DNA from: a bacterium
GTDB taxonomy: Bacteria > Armatimonadota > Fimbriimonadia > Fimbriimonadales > Fimbriimonadaceae
DNA: 64,000 bases
Assembly: GCA_027485645.1 (NCBI GenBank)
Contig: JAIXQR010000003.1
Coordinates: forward strand, 248,001 to 312,000
Reading direction: 5' to 3'
Part shown: one piece after another, positions 7,706 through 13,658 of the stretch
Layout: every line of letters starts with the position of its first letter
Position numbering within the stretch: position 1 is the first letter of the stretch
Made by a program: the position numbers and the translations under genes
Notes under the pieces: model-generated
Database searches by the model: none
What the model saw: only the letters and a program-made list of their open reading frames with translations
Told to the model about the DNA's origin: nothing

Positions 7706-9538
7706 ATGAGTGAAGTTAAAGTAAAACCCTTAGGCAAAATCATTGTAGTAATCCTGGTTGCAGGATTCGCATTTGGCGGCTACAAGCTCTACACGGGCGG
7801 CGGGCTTGGAGATCTGATTCCTTCCGCGCCGGTCCGAGAATCGGTTGTTCCGCTGAAGGCAGATTTGCCTCAGATCAATGATCAGCCAACTCCGGTCTCG
7901 GTCAAGAACCTCGCTCTTCCGGGCACCGAGAAGTTTGAAGGAACGGGTCCCCGCATCCGGTTCATGCACTGGGCTTGGAATGCCCACATGGGCATCTTCT
8001 TTGCTAACGGCGGCAAGTCAACCACCAACGGCTCGCTGATGGCAACGCGCGGAGTTGCGATCGACTTCACGCGACAAGACGATCCGGCGAAAATGCAGGA
8101 AGCCCTTGTCGACTTCGCCACCGAACTCAGCCGCGGTAATAAGCAGCCCGAGCGCGGAACCCACTTCGTCACCATCATGGGCGACGGCGGCGCAGCCTTC
8201 CTGGCTGGTCTCAACGACACCCTTGGCAAACTCGGTCCCGAGTACAAGGCGAAAGTCGTCGGAGCCATTGGCTTCTCGCGTGGAGAAGATAAGTTCATGG
8301 GACCGAAGAGCTGGTCCGCCAATCCGGCCGCTAGTAAGGGTGGCGTGGTTTCTGGCTACCTGCGAGACGGCGACTGGAACATCGCCATGAAGTGGCTCGG
8401 TGACAACGGCCTCAAGAACAACCCCGACGAAAAGACTTACGACCCTGACGCTCTGAACTGGGTTGCTGCAAATGACTACCTCGACGCAGGCGAAAAGTAC
8501 ATCTCGGGCTACACCGAAAAGCGACCGGTGGTTCGGAACGGAAAGCGCACCGGCGAAACCAAGACGATCAAGGTTGACGCGGTTGTTACCTGGACTCCCG
8601 GCGACGTGAACATTGCCGACAAGAAAGGCGGTCTCGTCTCCATCGTTTCCACCAAGGAATACAACGCTCAGATGCCCTGCGTGGTCATCGGCATTGATAA
8701 GTGGATGAAAGAGAACGAGGACCTCGTCGTGAAGATGCTCGACGGCGCCCTCGTTGGCGGAGAAGCCGTCCGCAGCAGTTCGGCTGCCCTCCGAAAGGCC
8801 GCCGAAATCAGTGCGGTCGCCTATGACGAAAAGGACGCTAGCTACTGGGAGCGGTACTACAAAGGAACCTTCGAGAAGGACAAAACCGGTGTGATGGTTG
8901 AACTCGGTGGTTCGTCGGTCAACAACGTTGCGGACAACATGCTCCTCTTCGGCCTCGTCAGCGGATCGGCAAACATCTTCTCCAGCGTGTACACGACGTT
9001 CGGCGAGATTGTTAAATCCCAGTACCCCGAACTCATGCCCAGCTTTCCGCCGGCGTCTGAGATCTTGGACACCCGCTATGTGAAAGCGGTAGCGCAGGAG
9101 CAGAACTTCAACGAACAGGCTCTTCGAAGCAGCGAAATGGCGGTCACCACGCCAAAGCCAGGTGCCATCACGAGCAAACGGCAGATCAGCGCCCGAGCTT
9201 GGAACATCGAGTTTGAGACGGGGCGAGCGGTCTTGAAGCCTTCGGCTAAGCCAGTGCTTGAAAAGCTGGTTCAGGAGCTCGCGGTCAGTACGACGACGAG
9301 CATCGAAGTCCACGGACACACCGACAACGTCGGCAACCCAGCCTCCAACATGGCTCTCTCGGAAGCGAGAGCGTTCGCGGTTCAGCGCTGGCTCAACAAG
9401 CGTGCGCCGCGCTTGTTCCCGACCGCACGCGTCCCGGTTCGAGCTCACGGTTCAACCCAACCGGTGGTCCCCAACACCACTCCGGCGGGTCGGGCTAAGA
9501 ATCGCCGCGTTGAAATCAAGGTTCAAGCCGTCAGATGA
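7706..9538 (+). CDS. ABC transporter substrate-binding protein fused to OmpA peptidoglycan-binding domain
   Basis: 610 aa. An N-terminal transmembrane segment (about residues 9-25) is followed by a NMT1/taurine-type periplasmic binding domain (about 45-440; MHWAWNAHMGIFFANGGKS, FVTIMGDGGAAFLAGLN, VVTWTPGD). After a linker comes an OmpA_C domain (about 490-605) with HGHTDNVGNPASN, ALSEARAFAVQRWL and terminal NRRVEI, including the Asp and Arg that bind diaminopimelate. The protein should therefore be tied to the inner membrane and to peptidoglycan. ATG 7706 has GGGAG upstream and is preferred to GTG 7688. The stop overlaps the permease start (ATGA). The substrate is unknown; similar fusions are sometimes labelled phosphate-binding. 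Confidence 0.85.
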   Translation: MSEVKVKPLGKIIVVILVAGFAFGGYKLYTGGGLGDLIPSAPVRESVVPLKADLPQINDQPTPVSVKNLALPGTEKFEGTGPRIRFMHWAWNAHMGIFFANGGKSTTNGSLMATRGVAIDFTRQDDPAKMQEALVDFATELSRGNKQPERGTHFVTIMGDGGAAFLAGLNDTLGKLGPEYKAKVVGAIGFSRGEDKFMGPKSWSANPAASKGGVVSGYLRDGDWNIAMKWLGDNGLKNNPDEKTYDPDALNWVAANDYLDAGEKYISGYTEKRPVVRNGKRTGETKTIKVDAVVTWTPGDVNIADKKGGLVSIVSTKEYNAQMPCVVIGIDKWMKENEDLVVKMLDGALVGGEAVRSSSAALRKAAEISAVAYDEKDASYWERYYKGTFEKDKTGVMVELGGSSVNNVADNMLLFGLVSGSANIFSSVYTTFGEIVKSQYPELMPSFPPASEILDTRYVKAVAQEQNFNEQALRSSEMAVTTPKPGAITSKRQISARAWNIEFETGRAVLKPSAKPVLEKLVQELAVSTTTSIEVHGHTDNVGNPASNMALSEARAFAVQRWLNKRAPRLFPTARVPVRAHGSTQPVVPNTTPAGRAKNRRVEIKVQAVR

Positions 9539-10371
9539 GCGCACCGACCGGACTAGCGGAAGCGCCGAAGGTCTCCAAGCAGGCGGCGGGATTGCTTCAA
9601 GCATTCTCGCCAAACAAAATCCTCAGCCGAACAGCGATGAACATCATCATCGCCGTCCAGGTCCTCATCTTTCTGTTGCTCTGGACCTTCTCGGCTTTTG
9701 CTGTCCTTCCGAAGCCGCTCGAAGTTCTGAATTCGATCCGGGATCTATGGTTCAAACAAGGGCTCGGCCAAGAGCTGATCACCAGCGTTTCGCTCAACCT
9801 AGAAGCGGTGGCGATCTCGGCTTTCATCTCGATTGGACTTGCGTATCTGACCGTGATGCCGTTTTTCCGGCCCCTCGTGAACGCGCTTGGCAAAGGCCGA
9901 TTCCTGAGCATGGCGGGATTCACGCTGGTGTTCACCCTCATCGTCGGTGGGGGCCATCCGCTAAAGCTATCGCTCCTCGTGTTCGCGATGACGGTGTTCT
10001 TCGTGACCTCGATGGCCGCGGTCGTTTCTGAGATTCCGAAAGCCGATTTCGACTACGCCCGAACCCTGCGCATGAGCGAATGGCGCGTCGTTTGGGAAGT
10101 CGTGGTTCTCGGTACCGCCGATAAGGCGTTCGAAGTCCTGCGCCAAAACGCCGCCATCGGCTGGATGATGTTAACCCTCGTCGAAGGTATCTACCGTGGC
10201 GAAGGTGGCATCGGCGCGCTGCTTCTTAACCAGCAGAAGTTCTTTAAGATGAGTGAAGTCTTCGGAATCCAAATCATCATTCTCATCGTCGGGCTGTTTC
10301 AAGACGTGATCATTGGTGCCGTGCGTCGTGCCGTGTGTCCCTACGCTGTCCTCACCTTGGAGCGAAAGTAA
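9535..10371 (+). CDS. ABC transporter permease (binding-protein-dependent type)
   Basis: 278 aa inner-membrane protein with about six hydrophobic segments, the first at residues 36-57. The cytoplasmic EAA-type coupling loop is recognisable around residues 178-205 (DYARTLRMSEWRVVWEVVVLG), as in NitT/TauT-family permeases. The start overlaps the stop of the OmpA-fused binding protein by 4 bp, and the ATPase begins 3 bp after its stop. Expression is thus coupled, and the three proteins very probably form one importer. Confidence 0.87.
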   Translation: MSAPTGLAEAPKVSKQAAGLLQAFSPNKILSRTAMNIIIAVQVLIFLLLWTFSAFAVLPKPLEVLNSIRDLWFKQGLGQELITSVSLNLEAVAISAFISIGLAYLTVMPFFRPLVNALGKGRFLSMAGFTLVFTLIVGGGHPLKLSLLVFAMTVFFVTSMAAVVSEIPKADFDYARTLRMSEWRVVWEVVVLGTADKAFEVLRQNAAIGWMMLTLVEGIYRGEGGIGALLLNQQKFFKMSEVFGIQIIILIVGLFQDVIIGAVRRAVCPYAVLTLERK

Positions 10372-10374
10372 GCG

Positions 10375-11208
10375 ATGATTCGACCGTCGATTGCCTACGA
10401 CATCAAAGAGCGGCTGTTATTGGTCGAAGGCGTCCACCTAAGTCTGGGCGGAAAGAAGATCCTCCGGGATGTCCATTTCGAAGTGCGAAACATCGTGCGC
10501 CCCGGAATCGAGCAGGGACAAGTTGTCGGCCTTCTCGGTCCGAGCGGCATGGGCAAGACCCAGCTTTTTCGGATCCTCGCCGGGTTAAACGCACCTGAGT
10601 CCGGGACCGTTCTCGTCGGAGAGCCTGGGACTCCCGTGAAGCCGGGAACGGTTGGCGTTGTCGCCCAAAACTATCCGCTCCTAAACCACCGGAAAATTAC
10701 CGGCAACCTCGTAGTGGCCGGTAAGCAAGCCGGAATGTCGGCGACCGAGGCAGAAGGCAAAGCAAAGCACTTGCTCGAAAGTTTTGGCCTCGCCGACCAT
10801 GGCGACAAGTACCCGGTCCAGCTCTCCGGAGGCCAGCGTCAGCGCGCCGCGATCGCTCAGCAGTTCATGTGCAGCAACGAACTGATGCTCATGGACGAGC
10901 CTTTCAGCGGTCTCGACCCCCTTGCGCTAAGCCGAATGTGCAAGTTCATCAAGGATGTCGCCCAAACCGATGAGCACAAGACGTTCATCATCGTTACCCA
11001 CGACATCGCTTCCGCAATTGAAGTCTGCGACACCTTAATCCTGCTGGGAAGAGACATTGACGCAGCGGGTGCATTCATTCCGGGAGCCCGGATTCAAAAG
11101 ACAATTGACCTCGTTGCACGCGGCTTGGCCTGGCATGCCGACATTTCCCGGACGCCCGAGTTTCACGCCACGGTGAACGAAGTAAAGGATCTCTTTACTC
11201 ATCTATAA
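10375..11208 (+). CDS. ABC transporter ATP-binding protein
   Basis: 277 aa. Walker A GPSGMGKT at residues 55-62, signature LSGGQRQR near 151, Walker B LMLMDEPFSGLD, and H-loop VTHD are all intact, so it should hydrolyse ATP. It is of the nitrate/taurine importer type. The C-terminal part (about 225-277) extends past the core domain. It is the third gene of the operon that begins at 7706. Confidence 0.9.
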   Translation: MIRPSIAYDIKERLLLVEGVHLSLGGKKILRDVHFEVRNIVRPGIEQGQVVGLLGPSGMGKTQLFRILAGLNAPESGTVLVGEPGTPVKPGTVGVVAQNYPLLNHRKITGNLVVAGKQAGMSATEAEGKAKHLLESFGLADHGDKYPVQLSGGQRQRAAIAQQFMCSNELMLMDEPFSGLDPLALSRMCKFIKDVAQTDEHKTFIIVTHDIASAIEVCDTLILLGRDIDAAGAFIPGARIQKTIDLVARGLAWHADISRTPEFHATVNEVKDLFTHL

Positions 11209-11249
11209 CTTGGCGCACCGGGTCATAATGTCAATCGAAGCTAACCGCC

Positions 11250-12215
11250 GTGAAATTTGACCCTTCGTTACCGATTTACAAGAGCCTGAAATACCGACTG
11301 GGAGAGGCCTTTAAAGAGGGGCCGAACTTGGTGGCACTCGCAGGATTCGTGGCGGCCTCTGCTGCAACCCTTAATCCCATTCCGCTGCTCGTCGGGCTCG
11401 TTGCCGAGGCCGTGTACTTACTGTTTGTGCCAGACACGACTTGGTACGAGAAGCGAATTCAAGCCCGTTTCGATGGTGAGGTTGTGGAACGCCGAGAAGC
11501 CCTTAAGGCTCAAACCTTCCCGATCGTTCGCAAAGAGATTCGACACGAATTCTCGCGGCTTGAGCAAGTTCGAAGTCAGATCGAGGGCCAATCTCGTGGC
11601 GAGGAAGGCTGGTTCCGAGAAGCCATGCGCAAGCTCGACTTCCTGATGGAGAAATATCTCCAGTTCGCGCAAAAGGAAGCCCAGTTCGCCAGCTACCTGA
11701 TGTCGGTTTATGCGGAGGTCTATGAAAAGATCCCTACCGGTGACCGCCGTTCGGTCACACCACCGATGATGATGGGCTCTGCCCCGCCAAAAACGCGAAA
11801 GGGCGAACGTAACGACGACGAAACCCCAGATAGCGCGGCACTTAATCCAACACCGGAGTGGGTGGAAGAAGTCGCATTCACGATATCAAGTTATTACGAA
11901 TACGAGCTTCGATCCCTTGAAGAATCGATTCAGTCCGAAACGGTTGTCGCGAACCAGAACCTGATGTCGAAGCGGCAGCAGATCATCACCCGGCGCAAGG
12001 AGTTCATCACCCGGGTCAGCCAGATCATGTCGAACCTCGGCTTGCAAATGCGGCTGATGGCCGACACTTTTGGACTCATCAACGATGAAATTCGCGCTCG
12101 CTCACCCGAACAGGTATTGAGCGATATTGACGATGTCATCATTCAAGCAACTTCGCTCACGGAGGCGATTGACGAGATCACCCCGATGACCGAGGTTGTA
12201 GGCACTTTAAGCTAA
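11250..12215 (+). CDS. unknown membrane-associated coiled-coil protein of the ABC-OmpA operon
   Basis: 321 aa, GTG start. A hydrophobic hairpin at about residues 26-61 (two close membrane segments with Ala/Leu/Val) is followed by long charged helices (about 75-165), a Pro/Asp-rich linker (about 170-205), and a second helical region with predicted coiled coil (about 215-320). No catalytic motif is visible. It lies 41 bp after the ATPase on the same strand and 10 bp before the next unknown gene, so it is probably an accessory part of the transporter complex. Function unknown. Confidence 0.72.
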   Translation: MKFDPSLPIYKSLKYRLGEAFKEGPNLVALAGFVAASAATLNPIPLLVGLVAEAVYLLFVPDTTWYEKRIQARFDGEVVERREALKAQTFPIVRKEIRHEFSRLEQVRSQIEGQSRGEEGWFREAMRKLDFLMEKYLQFAQKEAQFASYLMSVYAEVYEKIPTGDRRSVTPPMMMGSAPPKTRKGERNDDETPDSAALNPTPEWVEEVAFTISSYYEYELRSLEESIQSETVVANQNLMSKRQQIITRRKEFITRVSQIMSNLGLQMRLMADTFGLINDEIRARSPEQVLSDIDDVIIQATSLTEAIDEITPMTEVVGTLS

Positions 12216-12225
12216 GGAAACGGAC

Positions 12226-12921
12226 ATGAGCATCAAGAATATTCTTCGAAAAGCGGCATCCCTGGTGGTTGAACTTCCACCCGAAGCGGCCCCAGAACTC
12301 TCCGCCTCCATGTCGAGCTTTTCCGACGACATTCCGATGCCCGAGAGCAAGCCGGCTCCCGCGGCAACGAAGTCCGTTGAGCAAATTATCAAGGAAACCC
12401 CGGGGCCAAACTTGGATCAAATCAAAATCGCCGAAGAGACCGCGACCACCCCTGCGCCAACCGCTCCCGACGGAAAGGTGGACTACCAATCGGTGTATCA
12501 GCGCGCTGGCCTAACGCCCGTCGCTTTCTCCGCCGAGCAAGCCCTTGAGGTCATTCAGTCGCTGCCGAGCACTTTGCCCATCGAGGTACGCCGCGCCACC
12601 GTCAACGCCACCATCGCCGCCATGGGTAAGGCCATGGGCGTTGACACCGCCGGCGTCATCGCTGACGCTGGCCGAAAAGTCGCGGCTCTCTCCGCATACG
12701 AAGATCTCCTCACACACCAAACGAGCACCTACGTGGGCACGCTGGAAATGAAGATTCTGGAGCTAGAAACCCAGATCGCCATGCACCGCGAGGAAATCCA
12801 GAAGACCCAGAGTTTGCTCGCCACGGCCGTTGGACAGTGCGATGCGGAATCGAATCGGCTGGATGAGGTTCTCGAGTTCTTCACCCTCGACACCGGCGCC
12901 AGCTCGAACGCGACCGCCTGA
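12226..12921 (+). CDS. unknown soluble coiled-coil protein of the ABC-OmpA operon
   Basis: 231 aa, preceded by GGAAACGGAC as a Shine-Dalgarno site. An amphipathic N-terminus leads into a Pro/Ala/Glu-rich low-complexity stretch (about 18-80), a compact helical domain (about 85-160; VYQRAGLTPVAFSAEQALEVI, LPIEVRRATVNATIAAMGKAMG), and a C-terminal coiled coil (about 165-215). It ends the operon that starts at 7706. No family recognised. Confidence 0.7.
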   Translation: MSIKNILRKAASLVVELPPEAAPELSASMSSFSDDIPMPESKPAPAATKSVEQIIKETPGPNLDQIKIAEETATTPAPTAPDGKVDYQSVYQRAGLTPVAFSAEQALEVIQSLPSTLPIEVRRATVNATIAAMGKAMGVDTAGVIADAGRKVAALSAYEDLLTHQTSTYVGTLEMKILELETQIAMHREEIQKTQSLLATAVGQCDAESNRLDEVLEFFTLDTGASSNATA

Positions 12922-12944
12922 AGTGCCCGCATTCTTCTGTCACG

Positions 12945-12968
12945 CAAAACCGGTGCCGTCCGGTTTTG
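12945..12968 (+). terminator. hairpin after the ABC-OmpA operon
   Basis: A 9-bp perfect stem (CAAAACCGG with CCGGTTTTG) around a 6-nt loop lies 24 bp after the last stop codon of the operon. There is no T-run behind it, so termination would have to be weak or factor-assisted. It is close to the -35 region expected for the PEP-CTERM gene. Confidence 0.4.
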
Positions 12969-12990
12969 TGCGACTCGTTAAACTGCGCTC

Positions 12991-13658
12991 ATGAAAAAAT
13001 TTATTGCTTTAGGCATTCTTGCCTTGCCACTTTCGGCTCATGCGTTCACCTATCTCGAAGATTTCAAGGTCTCGTTGGTTCGGAATGGTCATCAAGCTTG
13101 GTGACCGCAGCTCCAGCCGATGCTAACCGAAAGTTCCTCGGTCGGTTCACTAACGACACGATCACGTTGACTCTGAATGGTCTCACCGCCGGTGCTCAAA
13201 CGACGGTCAACTTCGATTTGTTCGTCCTTGAATCTTGGGATGGCAACAACTCTGGCGTCGGTCCAGACCGGTTCAAGTTCGGCGCCAACGGCAACACTCT
13301 TCTCGACGAGACCTTCAGCAATGTTGAGCAATCAGGCTACGACCAGTCCTACTCCGCAAGCGGCTCGGGCAGCTTCGCCGCTGGTACCGATGCCGACGAG
13401 ATCGACACCCTCGGCTTTAACTTCTACGGCAACTCGGTGTACAAATTTGGCGGACCAAAGAACGCTGGCTTCACCTTTGTCAGCAACAGCACCAGCCTGA
13501 CCCTTACGTTCGCCGGAGCCAACCTTCAGGGCCTAAATGACGAAAGCTGGGGCATCGACAACGTCAGCGTGACTCAGGCACCCGTTCCAGAGCCAGCCAC
13601 CATGCTGATGCTCGGCGGCGGACTTGTCGCCGTCCTTCGACGACGACGCAAGAGCTGA
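12991..13658 (+). pseudogene. PEP-CTERM protein gene with apparent 1-base frameshift
   Basis: ATG 12991 opens a classic signal peptide (MKKFIALGILALPLSAHA) followed by FTYLEDF, but this frame stops after 36 codons at the TGA 13099-13101. From about 13065 the adjacent frame continues as GLVGSEWSSSLVTAAPADANRKF and runs to the end. It carries a beta-rich body and a PEP-CTERM sorting tail: VPEP, then a hydrophobic helix, then RRRRK. Adding one base near 13065-13066 would restore DFEGLVGSEW and a 222-aa protein. This may be real inactivation, programmed slippage or a sequencing error. A TAAACT element lies 6 nt before the ATG. A strong terminator follows. Confidence 0.75.

Follow-up and report, generated by a model that had tools for sequence, protein, structure and literature searches.

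Operons that join PspA, a bacterial ESCRT-III protein, to a transporter have been described before. According to the main text of Ravi et al. 2024 (mSystems, PMC11237479), certain bacterial operons combine PspA, transmembrane-anchored Snf7 homologues and AAA+ ATPases with an ATP-binding cassette (ABC) ATPase, a PBPB-OmpA protein and a permease; the authors suggest that such operons connect membrane remodelling with the transport of solutes. The present work concerns a related five-gene locus from a bacterium of the family Fimbriimonadaceae (Armatimonadota). It lies in a stretch of 64,000 nucleotides, here called the window (assembly GCA_027485645.1, contig JAIXQR010000003.1, positions 248,001 to 312,000), and encodes a binding protein fused to an OmpA domain (g1), an ABC permease (g2), an ABC ATPase (g3), a protein with a predicted membrane hairpin and long helices (g4, of a family termed g4a) and a further helical protein (g5).

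Like the published operons, the window has an ABC ATPase, a permease and an OmpA-fused binding protein in one operon, and several relatives add PspA and AAA+. Unlike them, it contains neither PspA or transmembrane-anchored Snf7 nor AAA+, and it has g4a and g5. Because the ABC/OmpA core, already known from the main text of PMC11237479, is common to both while PspA and AAA+ are absent from the window, the locus is, by its gene content, a variant and not a member of that operon type. As far as could be found, two points are new: the conservation of g4a and g5 as partners of the core, and the occurrence in phages. The main text of PMC11237479 mentions neither g4a and g5 nor phage copies. For huge phages, terD beside a pspA-like gene is known from the Jug phages (PMC12363816), with no transporters; OmpA, transporters and PspA all go unmentioned in the main text of the huge-phage survey PMC7162821, and literature searches found no account of a system of this kind in phages.

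The genes are inherited together, and the set recurs in distant phyla. When a genome collection was scanned with the g1 binding domain, 99 relatives came up and 80 of them were retained; they belong to Armatimonadota, Abditibacteriota, Acidobacteriota, Myxococcota, Bacteroidota and Patescibacteria, with single members elsewhere. Per-phylum counts of gene content refer to loci with complete flanks only. All 13 sister loci of the genus and family show the order g1-g2-g3-g4-g5, and 10 of 11 Armatimonadota loci have g1-g2-g3-g4a-g5; since the order recurs in this way, the grouping exceeds chance. A fourteenth locus (L048) combines a diverged g1-g2-g3 with well-conserved g4 (47%) and g5 (41%). A g4-type gene is present in 9/9 Acidobacteriota loci and 11/12 of those in Myxococcota, g5 in 8/9 and 10/12, respectively, and nearly all Patescibacteria loci encode g5 and a g4-type protein. 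Conservation of g4 and g5 beside the ABC genes had been proposed as a check in a preliminary description of the locus, and is borne out by the sister and Armatimonadota loci; its second check, on the peptidoglycan-binding residues of the OmpA domain, is passed as well (see below). The median identity of g4 and g5 to the window falls from 38-44% in Armatimonadota and Abditibacteriota to 12-23% in Acidobacteriota and Myxococcota. Two variations in layout were also seen. In G035 (L209), about 14 kb separate a g4a-g5 pair from a diverged g1-g2-g3, and in Xanthocytophaga (L095:6610-7641) an extra anchored protein of 343 amino acids, with a weak Ppx/GppA match, is inserted between g4b (see below) and g1.

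In relatives, the recurrent extra neighbours are PspA/IM30 (PF04012) and an AAA+ ATPase. The gene order in Acidobacteria is g5-PspA-g1-g2-g3-g4a-AAA, whereas Abditibacterium and one relative have g1-g2-g3-g4a-g5-PspA-AAA; the AAA+ gene is part of the operon in L056, L059, L061, L080, L081 and L088. In the genome of the window, a single PspA is encoded on another contig (C3), and no dedicated AAA+ protein was found, the matches covering the AAA core only and lying on other contigs or far away. A different set of neighbours occurs in one Chitinophagales locus (L111:11531-16681), namely two TerD genes and a vWA protein after g1-g2-g3, with g4 and g5 absent at the locus.

The protein that ties the module to the cell wall is g1. 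It has a hydrophobic anchor (residues 6-24), a binding domain (about residues 80-465) and a C-terminal OmpA domain (residues 503-600; 68.8 bits to PF00691 in Pfam). In alignment, D540 and R555 correspond to D241 and R256, the residues with which E. coli OmpA holds diaminopimelate; of the 89 aligned rows, E. coli OmpA included, all have the Asp and 88 have the Arg. This domain is the sole match to PF00691 in the genome of 3.19 Mb, where the search found neither Pal nor OmpA as a separate protein. Pfam has nothing for the binding-protein half by itself; in hhalign, its profile matches those of NMT1-like halves in related fusions with P 96%, and a profile search of the PDB gave no credible solved structure.

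Binding proteins usually evolve faster than their ATPases. Here, group medians of identity to the window, taken over phyla and phages, are 52-65% for the binding domain, 48-58% for the ATPase, 41-60% for the permease and 43-54% for the OmpA domain, and 84 residues of g1 are at least 97% identical in 85 sequences. Because its conservation is unusual in this respect, the binding domain may have a single shared ligand or partner, as these comparisons suggest. In a search of plasmids, OmpA domains were the only matches. A second anchored binding protein (SBP_bac_11) adjoins g1-g2-g3 in L065 (8479-9792), and recurs in L059 and L080.

The permease g2 scores 26.6 bits against BPD_transp_1, just over the Pfam cut-off of 26.4; its EAA-type loop is conserved in the window family, with the usual LP replaced. 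The ATPase g3 (89.1 bits to ABC_tran in Pfam) has all its motifs, namely Walker A, LSGGQ, Walker B and H-loop. The window resembles a type I ABC importer in having a binding protein, an EAA-type permease, apart from the replaced LP, and an ATPase with complete motifs.

For g4a, a membrane hairpin (helices 24-40 and 44-62) and long helices are predicted; for g5, which is soluble, a low-complexity N-terminus, a small helical domain and a helix of 83 residues. Neither g4 nor g5 has a credible family in Pfam, NCBIfam or PHROG, profile searches of the PDB with g4a and g5 gave nothing credible, and a structure search with g5 found nothing in the PDB. Several candidates were rejected: TAL-effector matches of g5 are taken as artefacts of one 26-residue stretch, with no stretch passing alone; fold matches of g4a (Foldseek/VIA; BAR domains, designed bundles and others) have the chance-level scores of helical bundles; and TelA/XpaC, considered as relatives of g5 and g4, have no support in Pfam. 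Among known families, g4a is unplaced.

Across the relatives, the hairpin/coiled-coil position is held either by g4a or by a second family, g4b, which occurs in the arrangement g5-g4b-g1-g2-g3. Homology between the two is not established (profile comparison, P 14-18%). Against PspA, the g4b profile reaches P 86% with an acidobacterial PspA set and 35% with a broader set, and P 92% over 188 columns once gp247 of Bacillus phage G is added as a bridge; from these comparisons, g4b is probably PspA-like. PspA itself, or PspA-like g4b or gp247, stands beside g5 in many relatives. Among named species, Xanthocytophaga flavus encodes g4b and g5, and Minicystis rosea g4a and g5. A conserved stretch usable for a viral scan is lacking in g4b.

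The same gene set occurs in huge phages. With tblastn, homologues were found in two phages of 462 kb and 735 kb and in 15 records of Lak phages (accessions of all these together: MK250015-29, LR756500, LR756501), and IMG/VR adds further contigs of 363-529 kb as well as shorter pieces. The g4-type gene and g5 are both present in 11 of 11 phage loci with complete flanks, the g5 of L032 being assigned by position and a weak score (E 6e-4). Two later viral loci, found with g1 as the only query and kept outside profile building, also have g5 and g4b. The Lak, 462 kb and 735 kb phages resemble the window in carrying all five gene types in one block at the loci examined; they differ in having g4b instead of g4a and the order g5-g4b-g1-g2-g3, which is the usual one in phages. 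Compared with the window, the NMT1-like binding domain of the Lak and 735 kb phages is about 25% identical. Neighbouring genes confirm the phage context of two copies: portal, head-protease and major-head genes lie near that of L135, and replication genes near that of L131.

An independent route leads to Bacillus phage G. In a structure search, the predicted window g5 matches gp246 of this phage (E 2e-4, probability 1.00), and the annotations nearby include an ABC-like permease (gp243), an ABC transporter (gp245) and two OmpA/MotB proteins (gp249 and gp250). Profiles built without phage G match gp246 (g5, 2.5e-14), gp243, gp245, gp249 and gp250, and gp247 matches the PspA profile (4.5e-8). The gp243-gp250 region thus has the permease, the ATPase, the g5 homologue and two fusions of a substrate-binding protein (SBP) to OmpA, with gp247 in the hairpin position. 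It differs from the window in its PspA-type gp247 where the window has g4a, in gene order, in the duplicated SBP-OmpA and in its monoderm host. The two SBP-OmpA proteins gp249 and gp250 (L205:5414-8619) stand in tandem, although this host has no outer membrane. When 50,697 phage records were searched with the SBP-OmpA protein of phage G, long matches occurred only in phage G (2 records), the 735 kb phage (2 records), 15 Lak records and one 38 kb fragment; the query that detected the 462 kb phage was the window protein.

The phage sequences in the g1 tree require four changes of label, and starred branches force three of these; the module has therefore probably been transferred between bacteria and phages more than once. 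In this tree, the placement of two long branches, L032 and L138, is uncertain, and L130 is possibly not of phage origin. A g1-g5 copy on a 1.36 Mb contig of a metagenome-assembled genome of the same family (L212, G135:C5:357000-372000) shares neighbours with the viral contig L130 (478,840 bp), namely DUF3307-like, HD-like, NadD-like and NADAR-like open reading frames (ORFs). Either the L212 contig contains a prophage or giant phage, or the filing of L130 as viral is wrong and it comes from a chromosome.

Table 1. Positions of the five genes and associated features in the window.
Feature	Position	Strand	Basis
g1: binding protein-OmpA domain fusion, 610 aa	7706-9538	+	ORF, Pfam, orthologues
OmpA domain in g1 (aa 503-600) with D540 and R555	9212-9505	+	Pfam PF00691, alignment
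g2: ABC permease, 278 aa	9535-10371	+	Pfam, motifs
g3: ABC ATPase, 277 aa	10375-11208	+	Pfam, motifs
g4 (g4a family): hairpin/long-helix protein, 321 aa, GTG start	11250-12215	+	predicted structure
g5: helical protein, 231 aa, homologue of phage G gp246	12226-12921	+	predicted structure, structure search
Hairpin 3' of g5	about 12939-12974	+	-22.3 kcal/mol, z -4.3, without U tract

Much of the preliminary description agrees with these data (Table 1): the five ORFs with their coordinates and strand, the fusion of a binding domain to an OmpA peptidoglycan-binding domain, the intact ATPase, and the predicted membrane hairpin of g4. Its ATGA coupling holds for the g1/g2 junction, where the overlap is at 9535-9538; the other junctions have gaps of 3 nt (g2-g3), 41 nt (g3-g4) and 10 nt (g4-g5). 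The unit was also said to end at a hairpin. This hairpin is real, yet it is not a textbook intrinsic terminator, because no U tract follows the stem. After the operon, the ORF at 12966-13658 has a PEP-CTERM-like end (VPEPATMLMLGGGLVAVLRRRRKS), and a homologue is found at the same place in the closest relative (L035).

How might these proteins work together? The preferred reading, for which the chances come close to even without reaching it, is a wall-anchored, inner-membrane, binding-protein-dependent ABC complex that works with PspA/ESCRT-III-type membrane maintenance. It is supported by the co-inherited gene set, the conserved peptidoglycan residues, a binding domain more conserved than the ATPase, the PspA and AAA+ neighbours, the PspA matches of g4b and gp247, and the prediction in the main text of PMC11237479. 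In such a complex, g1 would span from the inner membrane to the wall, and its binding domain would recognise either a single conserved ligand or the condition of the wall. In response, the ABC motor would turn over, and the change would be relayed to g4 and g5 at the inner face, where these may determine the location of PspA-type scaffolds for stabilising or reshaping the membrane. Because PspA is encoded on another contig in the genome of the window, g4a and g5 could act there as an adaptor. In huge phages, the same machine may protect or remodel the host membrane during infection. Rather tentatively, and with some doubt, it is proposed that g1-g5 form one stable wall-anchored, ATP-driven membrane-remodelling complex, with g5 and a hairpin protein (g4a, g4b or PspA) as regular subunits, which many huge phages carry to manage the host membrane and which has been exchanged with several phyla.

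Several observations weigh against the PspA-linked reading. The window locus itself lacks PspA and AAA+, g4a has no detectable homology to PspA (profile P 0.5-5%), and the match of g4b to PspA shifts with the alignment used, from P 35% to 92%. In Bacteroidota, 6 of 7 complete loci have g1-g2-g3 without g4 and g5, which are present in the remaining one; no unlinked g5 was found in Bacteroidota genomes with the Armatimonadota profile, but this profile also missed the known g5 of L095, so the result has little weight. In addition, g4a is found alone in G017 (L208), where it adjoins a LepA-like gene, and stands directly beside PspA, with no ABC genes, in L222. For these reasons, g4 and g5 are regular but not obligatory partners of the ABC/OmpA module; with g4b or PspA next to g5 elsewhere, the word 'dedicated' in the preliminary description was too strong. 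Most Bacteroidota loci, with g1-g2-g3 only, would suit a plain type I importer for one scarce solute, in which the tether keeps the binding protein near the permease and g4 and g5 have accessory roles in assembly or regulation. The complete set of binding protein, permease and ATPase with intact motifs fits this well, as do the extreme conservation of the binding domain and its NMT1-like relatives, which bind solutes. Uptake of a single solute hardly explains the PspA, AAA+ and TerD neighbours, the OmpA anchor or the many huge-phage copies, and a plain importer is considered rather unlikely. The PspA and AAA+ links make an envelope-spanning machine, as the preliminary description had proposed, plausible in its place on sequence grounds.

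The OmpA anchor also fits a reading in which the ABC proteins do not transport and act, as FtsEX does, as a transducer of signal or force between wall and membrane, with the binding domain reading wall fragments or envelope tension. The coiled-coil partners, and a permease loop that is conserved in the window family without the usual LP, are compatible with such a sensor or tether. However, the permease is of the BPD_transp_1 importer type with a recognisable coupling loop, and wall hydrolases were not among the regular neighbours seen at the relatives' loci; this reading is considered quite improbable. A role in defence or superinfection exclusion, in which the system guards the bacterial membrane against phages and, in huge phages, acts against competitors, would account for the presence in many huge phages, the patchy distribution, the PspA link, and the TerD and vWA neighbours in L111. 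It is the least probable of the readings: PADLOC matched nothing beyond the shared OmpA domain and generic parts of the ATPase, and defence genes were not seen as regular neighbours of the relatives' loci. Zorya (ZorB) and other defence families were rejected as relatives, PADLOC covering the OmpA end of g1 only, with no ZorA-like protein among the five genes.

With this locus, two unnamed families, g4a and g5, become regular partners of a PspA-linked ABC/OmpA module, and the same gene set, partners or their counterparts included, is common to distant phyla and several of the largest known phages. From its unusual conservation, the binding domain of g1 is predicted to have one shared ligand or partner. 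The role of an ABC transporter module in huge phages is directly testable, as phage G is cultured on Bacillus megaterium.
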